From: Microglena sp. YARC | Taxonomy: Eukaryota; Chlorophyta; Chlorophyceae; Chlamydomonadales; Chlamydomonadaceae | DNA: 64,000 nucleotides | NCBI GenBank assembly: GCA_022414725.1 | Contig: CM039464.1 | Span: 15,579,368 to 15,643,367, forward strand | Reading direction: 5' to 3' | Shown here: positions 542 through 41,370 of the stretch, piece by piece | Layout: each line of letters begins with the position of its first letter | Position numbering within the stretch: position 1 is the stretch's first letter | The notes under the pieces: model-generated | Seen by the model: only the letters and a program-made list of their open reading frames with translations | Databases searched by the model: none | What the model was told of the DNA's origin: nothing | Position numbers and translations under genes: made by a program

Positions 542-3500
542 GTGGGTTGGTGCACATGTGAAAGAGGGGTGGGGGAGGGGGTGCAAAGGGGGGAGGTGCT
601 CCATGTGAGAGGAGGGGGGGGGGGGGGGGGGGCTACATGTGAAGGGGGTGGGTGCCCATTGTGAAGGGGGGAGGTGCTCCATGTATGTGTGTGTGCCCAT
701 GTGGGGGGGGAGGGGGTGGGGGGGGGGGGGCTCTATGTGAAGGTGGGTGGTGCCCATGTGAAGGGGGGAGGTGCTCCATGTATGTGTGTGTGCCCATGTG
801 GGGGGGAAGGGGGTGGGTGGGTGGGTGGGTGGGTGGGGGCTCTATGTGAAGGTGGGTGGGTGCCCCATGTGAAGGGGGGAGGTGCTCCATGTATGTGTGT
901 GCCCATGTGGGGGGGGAAGGGGGGGGGGGGGGGGGGGGCTCTATGTGAAGGTGGTGGGTGCCCATGTGAAGGGGGGAGGTGCTCCATGTGGGTGGGGGGG
1001 GGGGAGGGGGGGGGGGCTCTATGTGAAGGTGGGTGGGTGCCCATGTGAAGGGGGAGGTGCTCCATGTGTGTGTGTGTGTGGGGGGGGGGGGGGGGGGAGG
1101 AAGGGGGGAAGGGGGAGTTTGTGATATTTGAGATGCGTAAGGATGTAGTGCTTGGGTTAGGGTGCCATACAGTGAGAGGTGTGTAACAGAAATGATTAGT
1201 TTCTTTTATTATCAAACATAAATATACAAACAAACTACATTTTTTGTTTTCAAATATCTGTAGACCTGCTTGTCAATAAATAAAAAGTACAATAGTTAAG
1301 TAATCCCAGATATGTACTTCAGGGGAAAAACCCTAAACCCTGCCTCCTATGTAGGGTGGCCCATCCCCACGTGCGCCTTAGAGCCGCCCAGAAATAGCTA
1401 TAGTGGCGCTGTTCTTGCTGGAGACCTAAAACCATGAAGCTAGAAAAAACACTTTCAGGTTTGAAAAAACATCCCCTGTTTCCTTTGTGCAGGGTGGCCC
1501 ATCTCCACGAATGCCTTTGGGCCGCCCAGAAATAGCTATAGTGGCGCTGTTCTTGGAGGAGGCCTACAACCATGAAGCTAGAAAAATCCACTTGCGGATT
1601 TAAAAAACAAATCCCCTGTTTCCTATATGCAGGGTGGCCCATCTCCACGAATGCCTTTGCTCTAGGCCTGTTTGTCAATAAATAAAAAAGTAAAATAATA
1701 ATCCCAGCTATATTTCCCCCTGCTTCCTATAAGCAGGGTGGCCCATCCCCACGGGCGCCTTCGAAATGGCTAAAGTGGCGCTGTTCATGGAGGAGGCCTA
1801 CAACCATGAAGCTAGAAAACACTCACTTTCAGGTTTGAAAAAAACATCCCCTGTTTCCTATGTGCAGGGTGGCCCATCTCCATGTGCGCCTTTGGGCCGC
1901 CCAGAAATAGCTATAGTGGCGCTGTTCTTGGAGGAAGCCTACAGCCATAAAGCTAGAAAAATCAACTTTCAGGGGATTTGAAAAACAAATCCCCTGTTTT
2001 CTATATGCAGGTTGGCCCATCTCCATGTGCGCCTTTGTGCCGCCCAGAAATAGCTATAGTGGCGCTGTTCTTGGAGGAAGCCTACAACCATAAAGCTAGA
2101 AAATCCACTTTCGGATTTGAAAAACAAATCCTTTGCTTTCGATGTGCAGGGTGGCCCATCCCCGTAATATCTCTAGGCCTGTTAGCCAATAAATAAAAAG
2201 GAAAACAGATATCCTATCTATATTCCCCCCTGCGTCCTATGTGCAGGGTGGCCCATCTACACGGGCACCTTTCGGCCGCCCAGAAATAGCTATGGTGGCG
2301 CTGTTCTTGGAGGAGGTCTAAAACCATAAAGCTAGAAAAAACCTGGAAACCCCCCACCTTCAAATTTGAAAAATAAAATCCTTGCTTCTTATGTGCAGGG
2401 TGGCCCATCTCCACGGGTGCTTGAATTCAGTGAGCTGCCAAACTTTGTTCGCTTTAATGCCCCCACCCACCCCACACACACAAACACACACCACCACACC
2501 CCTCCACCCTCCACACCCACACTAGTGACGCTGTCCTTGGAGAAGGCCTAAAACCATAAAGCTAGAAAAAAACATCCCATGTTTCCTTGGTCCAGGGTGG
2601 CGCATCCCCACTGGCGCTTGAATTCAATGAGCTGCCGAACTTGGTGCGCTTCAATGCCGTGTTGAAAGAAAGCTTTCGGGTTCATCCTGTGGGGCCCATG
2701 TCACCCACAAGGCAATTCTTAAGTGGGTGTGGGGGTGGGTGGTGGGGGAGTTCGTGGGGTGGGTGGGTAGGTGAGTGGTATGTGTGGGGGTGGGGTGGGG
2801 GGTGGGGGCTCCCATGGCACCCACAAGGCAAGTCTTAAGTGTGGCTGGGGGTGGTGGGTGGGTGGGAGTTTGTGTGGGGGGGGGGGGGGGGAGTGGGGTG
2901 TGTTGGGGGGGGGGGGGGGGGGGGGGGGGAGGGCTCCCATGGCACCCATAAGGCAAGTCTTAACAAATGCATAACGAACTCAGGGCACCCGTCGGTAAAA
3001 CAATTGTTTGGGGTTCAGCTCCTCAATACTTTTTCTTTTCAGCCCTTCCTGTCACGGTTGGGCAATTCCACCTAGCCTATTTGACATACCCCTGGACTGT
3101 AACATACATACATACATACAAGCAATACAACTTTCCTTTTTAGTGCATGATGTTCAGAAGACCCTCTTGACTCCATCAAGCCGCGGGCACATTTGCAGTC
3201 CTGGAGGGCACCAGGAAAAACGAAATCATCTTCATTGATCATTATCATATTATGCTACCCTCAAGGCAAGTCCTAATCATGTTCACCTACGTGAAGTTGG
3301 TTAGTCGGTTGGCTGGTGAAAATTGTGTTTTGGCTTCTCCAGCAGGGTACTACAAAGCGCGCTCGGCAGCGCTATTTTGCGCACACTTTTTGAGCCCCAC
3401 TGCGTGATTCGCGCAGTTTTATAAACCCCTGTGGGCGCAGCGCGCAGTTTTTGCGCATTTTGCATCACAAAGCGCTGACCAATTTGACGCTTTAAGCGCT

Positions 3501-40149: not shown

Positions 40150-41370
40150 TGTGGTTGAAGCTGATGCTTGAGGTACAATTTAGTGTGGTTGAAGCTGAGT
40201 TCATGGATCTCAAACAGCAGCTGGGTGTCAGTAAGAACTGCCGCCACCGGCCAGTTGCTGGACGTACATAATAGTGCGGTTGAAGCTGATGCTGGAGTTA
40301 CAATTTAGTGTGGTCGAGCCGTAGGATGGACCAGCCTGTTCCTGGAGGTACCATTTAATGTGGTTGCAGCTGAGTTCATGGATGTACAGCGGCAGCTGAG
40401 TGTCAATAAGAATCGCTGCCACCGGCCTGTTCCTAAAGGTACAATGTAGTGTGGTTGAAGCTGTTGCTGGAGGTTCAATTTAGTGTGGTCGGGCGGTAAA
40501 GTGACTGGCCTATCGCTTTAGGTACAACCTTGTGTGGTCTAAGCTGGGTTCATGAGTGTACAGAGGCAGCAGAGTGGCAGTAAGAACAGCTGCCACCGCC
40601 CTGTTGCTGGAGGTACAACTTTGTGTGGTCTAAGCTGGGTTCATGAGTGTACTGAGGCAGCAGAGGGGCAGTAAGAACAGCTGCCACCGCCCTGTTGCTG
40701 GAGGTACAACTTTGTGTGGTCTAAGCTGGGTTCATGAGTGTACTGAGGCAGCAGAGGGGCAGTAAGAACAGCTGCCACCGCCCTATTGCTGGAGGTACAA
40801 CTTTGTGTGGTCTAAGCTGGGTTCATGAGTGTACTGAGGCAGCAGAGGGGCAGTAAGAACAGCTGCCACCGCCCTATTGCTGGAGGTACAATTTAGTGTG
40901 GTTGGGCGGTAGGGTGGACCGGCCTGTCGCTGGAGTTACACCTTAGTGAGGTTTAAGCTGAGTCTATGGATGTGCAGCGGCATCTGAGTGGCAATAAAAT
41001 CGCGGTCACTGGCCCGTTTCTGGAGGTTCAATTTAGTGTCGTCGGGCGGTAAGGTGGACCGGCCTGTCGCTGGAGGTACACCTTAGTGAGGTTTAAACTG
41101 AGTCTATGGATGTGCAGCGGCATCTGAGTGGCAATAAAAACCGCCGCCACCGGCCCCTTCCTTGAGGTTCAATTTAGTGTGGTCGGGCAGTAAGGTGGAC
41201 TGGCCTGTCGATGGAGGTACAACTTCGTGTGGTTTAAGCTGGGTTGATGGGTGTACAGCGGCAGCTGAGTGGCACTAAGAACTGCTGCCACCAGCCTGTT
41301 GCTGGAGGTACAATCTAGTGCGGTTGAAGCTGTTGCTGGAGGTACAATGTAGTGTGTTTGAGCGGTAAGG
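40150..41370 (+). repeat. Nine decayed copies of the HAD terminal exon
   Basis: GCTGAGTTCATGGATGT and variants near 40194, 40370, 40544, 40636, 40727, 40817, 40959, 41099 and 41240, each followed by GCAGCAGAGTGGCA, GCCGCCACCGGCC and CTGGAGGTACAA. The units at 40544-40890 are nearly identical (91 bp), a recent expansion. Confidence 0.85.

Follow-up and report, generated by a model that had tools for sequence, protein, structure and literature searches.

Tandem arrays of coding edges and splice sites within introns of P450, HAD, dynein, and kinesin genes

Introduction

Tandem duplication across an intron-exon border is already known from a single potato gene. In that gene, RdRp, a tandem genomic duplication across the border, a single event, is reported to have given rise to a new intron (PMC4974935). 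The arrays described here resemble the potato case in that the duplicated segment crosses an intron-exon boundary and takes splice signals along, but differ in that introns already present have become longer through many events, a single border having up to ~10 copies and many genes being affected. Dinoflagellate introners likewise have a large effect on the introns of algal genomes, but they are mobile elements, scattered through the genome, each of which creates an entire intron (PMC11453091), whereas the units here are local and lie head to tail. The short direct repeats near intron borders treated in PMC11782384 are also close to splice sites; those are pairs of 4-30 bp linking both intron ends, whereas here many copies of a single border lie to one side of it. 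Minisatellite-type arrays, as generally understood, share head-to-tail units, turnover, and homogenization with the present arrays, but the unit here often holds part of a coding exon together with a splice site.

We found no description of border arrays on such a scale, or of exon-edge tandem arrays, in the accessible parts of the open-access literature, and the scale of the decoy arrays is unusual. With between one and ten near-perfect decoys next to many of its real sites, the genome offers a natural experiment on how the spliceosome chooses among them, and the arrays show a way for introns to lengthen from their edges.

Results

The window analyzed is a stretch of 64,000 nucleotides (C3:15579368-15643367) from a 568-Mb eukaryotic assembly of 2390 contigs. 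On its plus strand, to which all features below belong unless noted, a HAD gene was modeled from homologs as nine exons (exon 1, 21093..21374; exon 2, 23538..23625; exon 3, 26867..27021; exon 4, 29111..29194; exon 5, 31663..31707; exon 6, 33175..33276; exon 7, 34935..35137; exon 8, 37403..37499; and the last exon with the stop codon, 40066..40149). The exons form a single continuous frame of 379 codons, and the introns measure 1467-3241 nt. A further candidate exon near 39914-39983 was rejected, as the homologs join exon 8 to the last exon. The top protein match, the EukProt prediction P0001, is seemingly identical wherever the two models agree; the next matches were green-algal and plant proteins, with 46-58% identity in the five further proteins aligned. 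Gene prediction fails here: P0001 includes two of the exon-3 decoys described below and lacks exons 2 and 5, and it may be a prediction error because those two exons are conserved in the homologs. The exon 8 acceptor reads CAA (37393-37410), the corresponding site in an upstream unit reading TAG. P0001 reads across this acceptor as though spliced at the CAA site, which may represent a polymorphism, a sequencing error, or an unusual intron.

A P450 gene was also modeled over its final four exons, namely exon a (449..541), exon b (2596..2711), exon c (4793..4862), and the last exon, exon d (5548..5898), the latter with a PF00067 match at C3:15584918-15585166. The phases of exons a, b, and c, and with them the frame of exon a, are those we presume from P450 homology. 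The exon b donor, AG|GCAATT (2700-2720), is a poor GC donor, and its downstream copy has GCAAGT. Scans of the window for tRNA genes and Rfam families gave no matches.

For each of the 23 P450 and HAD junctions, the 60 nt around it were compared by alignment with the 4 kb in which it lies. Under a strict criterion (a minimum of 12 nt on either side of the junction, score 40), a local junction-spanning copy was found at 11 of the 23 junctions; a lenient criterion (at least 10 nt on each side, score 36, softer penalties) raised this to 15, with 61 copies in the window. The copies lie head to tail in units tens to hundreds of bases long, as in minisatellite-type arrays, and the unit comprises part of the exon, the splice site, and the adjoining intron. 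The preliminary description had placed such copies at nearly every intron border; they are present where it located them, but the borders affected are fewer than it claimed.

In the P450 gene, two partial copies upstream of exon a (71..296; copies 71-190 and 222-296, 76-79% identical) have lost the acceptor AG, the sites reading cat|TTT and cca|TTT. At 730..1059, the donor edge of exon a recurs in G-rich copies (four strict, five lenient). An array of a ~143-bp unit at 1401..2445 carries the exon b acceptor edge in four strict and nine lenient copies, six by a separate count, and the donor edge of exon b is repeated at 2802..2860 with 85% identity (one strict, two lenient). The acceptors of exons c and d had no junction-spanning copies under either criterion. 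Before exon c lies a CCCAC-type array (4260..4788) that is intronic throughout in the window; before exon d, the units at 5294..5538 hold the acceptor and a few exon bases and were not counted as spanning.

In the HAD gene, exon 2 is flanked by five strict copies of its acceptor edge (22811..23445; 84-95% identical) and by nine strict, ten lenient copies of its donor edge (23791..24590), the ten being missing from the preliminary list. Seven acceptor-edge copies of exon 3 (25266..26670) hold 23-89 exon nt each and have cag at all seven sites; a single donor-edge copy (27796..27873) has GT changed to CT. Exon 6 has four acceptor-edge copies (32683..33135; 88-96% identical). Exon 7 has one strict and two lenient acceptor-edge copies (34787..34832) and three donor-edge copies (35377..35668), and exon 8 has five strict and eight lenient donor-edge copies (37674..39407). 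Two units before exon 8 (36832..37170), one of them that with TAG at the site, include just nine exon bases and counted under neither criterion; like the units at P450 exon d, they are weaker copies in which few exon bases are visible. No junction-spanning copies were found at the exon 1 donor, at either side of exon 4 under either criterion, or at the acceptors of exon 5 (which has no strict copies), exon 8, and the last exon. Whole-exon copies with both splice sites were not noticed for any of the 13 window exons. The numbers first reported were recovered for P450 exon b (nine), for HAD exons 2 (five), 3 (seven), and 6 (four), and for the last exon (nine), and nearly so for the exon 8 donor (eight found, about nine reported); for the exon 7 donor only three of five were found.

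Similar arrays occur at stop codons. Nine copies of the HAD last exon lie beyond its stop codon (40193..41318; 79-85% identical); the acceptor of that exon is not part of this array and has no lenient copy spanning it. On the minus strand, the terminal coding segment of a reading frame is repeated in 13 copies beyond the stop (13852..15678), and three acceptor-edge copies of an exon beginning at 16890 (17520..18092) have 60-55 intron and 38-40 exon bases each; this putative minus-strand gene was read by eye. No copies were found in the window sequence beyond the stop of the P450 last exon. Since arrays are also found at stop-codon edges, duplication is not bound to splice sites, and the relevant feature is the edge of coding sequence, not the splice site.

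The same copy measure was then applied to other window positions with a complexity filter (dust<=1.0). Positions that share an array are not independent of each other, which makes small p values optimistic. Copies were found for 9 of 20 junctions compared to 293 of 567 positions in intron interiors (p 0.65), and for 22 of 172 positions in exon interiors and 27 of 317 in other window DNA, which introns thus exceed. The full set of junctions (11/23) stood above exon interiors (22/172; p 2e-4). By distance from the junction, the copied intron positions were 18 of 33 at 40-120 nt, 46 of 66 at 120-250 nt, 73 of 106 at 250-500 nt, 86 of 188 at 500-900 nt, and 70 of 174 beyond 900 nt. The densest zone thus lies 120-500 nt inside the intron, and as copies are denser there than in mid-intron, their placement is not uniform. 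Large arrays of intron DNA only are found at 27030-27736, 28777-29036, and 33380-34611.

The same pattern was seen at 16 P450 loci elsewhere in the genome; their selection was based on P450 matches (34 of the 46), irrespective of repeats. The 60-nt bins directly outside the match ends, which only approximate junctions, gave 0.44-0.54, bins further into the intron 0.35-0.73 with the peak at 120-240 nt, and exon middles 0.12. Local-duplication values were 0.18 for ten random 4-kb stretches, 0.42 for ten P450 gene pieces, and 0.46 for HAD; four partly overlapping window pieces outside P450 and HAD gave 0.08, one of them 0.27. One of the random stretches (C1:20000001-20004000) was low-complexity at 98 of 98 sampled positions.

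These rates bear on the proposal that duplication is aimed at splice junctions, for example through breaks or template switching at structures there, with arrays starting at the junction. About half of the junctions do lie in arrays, copy density is higher in the 500 nt next to exons than in mid-intron, and by eye an intronic array in a P450 paralog bears a junction copy at its far end, but junctions do not rise above the intron background, arrays of the same size occur at stop codons, and some arrays hold only intron. We therefore consider an aimed process improbable, and a junction-specific origin was dropped on the comparison of the junction rate with intron and exon positions, there being no excess over introns. 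The preliminary description had stated that the array always includes the junction, and had suggested a process that begins at splice junctions or is linked to them. Neither is supported: intron positions are copied at least as often, there are big intron-only arrays, neither the window nor the 16 P450 loci show an excess at junctions, the densest zone is at 120-500 nt, and two arrays sit at stop codons. In this sample, as distinct from the annotated genome, repeat units overlap junctions no more than expected, the very outcome that the preliminary description had named as its refutation.

A profile search of the 568-Mb genome, with a match per exon and only the best candidates scored, gave 342 matches in five families among the matches listed (P450, 46; kinesin, 128; dynein AAA_6, 66; HSP70, 75; MCM, 27). 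A detached partial copy was defined as a second match overlapping in profile coordinates within 2 kb; copies of <20 residues are invisible to such a search. At least 37 detached partial copies were found (dynein, 24; kinesin, 10; HSP70, 2; MCM, 1; P450, 0). When each was compared with the longest match only, 22 were 3'-edge copies downstream and 11 were 5'-edge copies upstream; three matched both ends within tolerance, one was internal, and none had the opposite polarity. All 33 one-sided copies, from 22 exon edges, are thus in direct, in-place orientation, the exon edge being doubtful for one (C1:42403832) that shares a profile end only. This polarity is forced by in-place tandem duplication, and dispersed copies would not give it. 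A tally of all pairs also included two opposite-order copy-to-copy pairs and four other pairs, at least some of them neighboring exons.

At six of eight kinesin loci (L042 was unclear and L044 unscored), exon part, splice site, and intron aligned as a single block, with up to 95% identity of copy to exon. A dynein gene at C1:61043188 has seven donor-edge copies after an exon and three strict acceptor-edge copies before it. At two dynein loci, picked for their copies, the strict criterion was satisfied at 8 of 17 junctions, one GT-less donor being excluded. The remark in the preliminary description that such a gene must ignore many near-perfect decoys therefore stands, as units straddle junctions here and in unrelated genes elsewhere.

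Seven of eight array units had no match in 291,723 other bases with the low-complexity filter on; the exception, the P450 exon b unit, had matches of 67-81 bp in four loci. Among 11 window introns, direct repeats joining both ends amounted to 0-4 nt in ten and 6 nt in one. Both results weigh against introners (mobile introns), and against remnants of introns born when an AGGT-containing exon segment was duplicated. Either process leaves repeats near intron ends in other lineages, according to PMC11453091 and PMC4974935, and one dynein intron absent from its paralog has, by eye, a match of ~10 nt between exon end and intron end. With seven of eight units local only and the window intron ends sharing so little, we regard both origins as highly improbable.

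The distribution of differences over codon positions was even in the HAD and kinesin copies together with the acceptor edge of dynein locus L047 (260:249:272). The dynein donor-edge copies of two paralogs gave 68:35:196, figures for copies that are not independent and in which base-composition bias is possible. By our arithmetic, re-copying from a constrained exon would put at most ~49% of changes at third positions, whereas dynein shows 66% (196/299). Neutrality does not predict this bias. The dynein donor-edge copies (L047:1061-2185, L048:770-1762) are 120 nt long and for the most part open, with an AG in front of 11 of the 12; from these features of the sequence, they could be in-frame cassette exons. 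The dynein copies thus speak for the view that the copies are functional, as cassette or alternative exons or as decoys that regulate splicing, as do the two exon-3 decoys within P0001. The HAD and kinesin copies, however, look neutral, P0001 with its two missing exons is possibly in error, and splice dinucleotides are not clearly better retained than flanks: in the lenient copies compared to flanks, AG stood at 1.00 and 0.93 and GT at 0.97 and 0.82, and a constraint on the decoy dinucleotides was dropped on this account. A functional role for the copies is accordingly unlikely in our estimation.

Paralogs gave some view of array history. A P450 paralog ~580 kb away has border arrays in common with the window gene, with different copy numbers: it has one extra copy at the exon c donor and, by eye, ~8 copies of the short unit before exon d compared to 4 in the window. 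Also by eye, the distal end of the CCCCA array in this paralog (L009) bears an exon c acceptor copy whose counterpart in the window has decayed. A dispersed repeat of ~140-160 bp lies at 2974-3113 and 4054-4209 in the window, 78-84% identical to L009 sites on both strands.

The two dynein paralogs, L047 and L048, are 73% alike over exon edge and intron, and their inner units are 97-98% alike within each gene. The outermost L047 unit is 80% identical to the outermost L048 unit and 80-81% to its own array, and in a tree it groups with L048 units (support 0.92-0.96). A Tyr-to-Asp change relative to the exon is common to 11 of 12 copies across both genes. These relationships suggest that the founding dynein duplication may predate the gene duplication, and that the arrays would have been re-amplified since. 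By eye, one dynein intron with decoy arrays is present in one paralog and absent in the other (L047:3814-4718, L048:4549-4890), its exon end and intron end having ~10 nt in common, and the expected donor at L048:4880-4900 reads CAG|TAGG, as if one G had been lost.

Discussion

The local tandem copies, their polarity, and their presence in unrelated genes are best explained, with a probability of roughly two in three, by intronic in-place tandem duplication together with tolerance of the units that span junctions. In this genome, which resembles that of a green alga, introns would grow by repeated head-to-tail duplication in place of segments mostly of ~50-300 nt. These segments could land anywhere in the non-coding parts of a gene, often across a coding edge, be it an acceptor, a donor, or a stop codon. 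Such a duplication would be tolerated because one exon, invariably the one toward the exon body, stays intact, and the extra fragment and its splice site become intron; the array would afterwards expand and homogenize. Since it is this copy that is intact, the sites in use are the closest pair across a short exon. Exon definition selects the nearest acceptor and donor pair across a short exon (see also PMC5762160). Splicing would then still pair the acceptor and donor nearest the exon body, exon definition would render the decoys harmless, and most copies would presumably be neutral. Weighing against this reading are the third-position bias of the dynein donor-edge copies, the uneven placement of copies along introns, and the large share of dynein among the detached copies (24 of 37).

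Further-reaching, and in our judgment doubtful, is the conjecture that splice choice follows a proximity rule of exon definition strong enough to pass over complete, near-identical splice sites a few hundred bases off. Selection against junction-spanning duplication would thereby be lifted, so that a large share of borders genome-wide would have become decoy arrays, some predating gene duplications, and in a few genes, dynein heavy chains among them, in-frame copies would have become cassette exons.

Tandem arrays are hard to assemble, and one dynein donor and the acceptor of HAD exon 8 appear damaged, as by sequencing errors. Nevertheless, the copies differ from each other by 2-30%, the units are gene-specific, and many unrelated genes are affected. 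P0001, moreover, contains the same exon-3 decoys, although it may derive from another assembly, given that it implies that the acceptor of exon 8 is intact. An assembly artifact is, on these grounds, very unlikely.

Other features of the window are recorded here. A long stretch on the minus strand at 48400-58200 is LINE-type retroelement-like, with no local duplication in two 4-kb pieces, and contains near 53150 what we take to be a YADD-like motif. An intronless plus-strand reading frame at 45660-46690 is ankyrin-repeat-like by eye. Pure poly-C/poly-G runs of 31-43 nt occur at 5199-5238, 10062-10104, 13541-13571, and 20189-20225.
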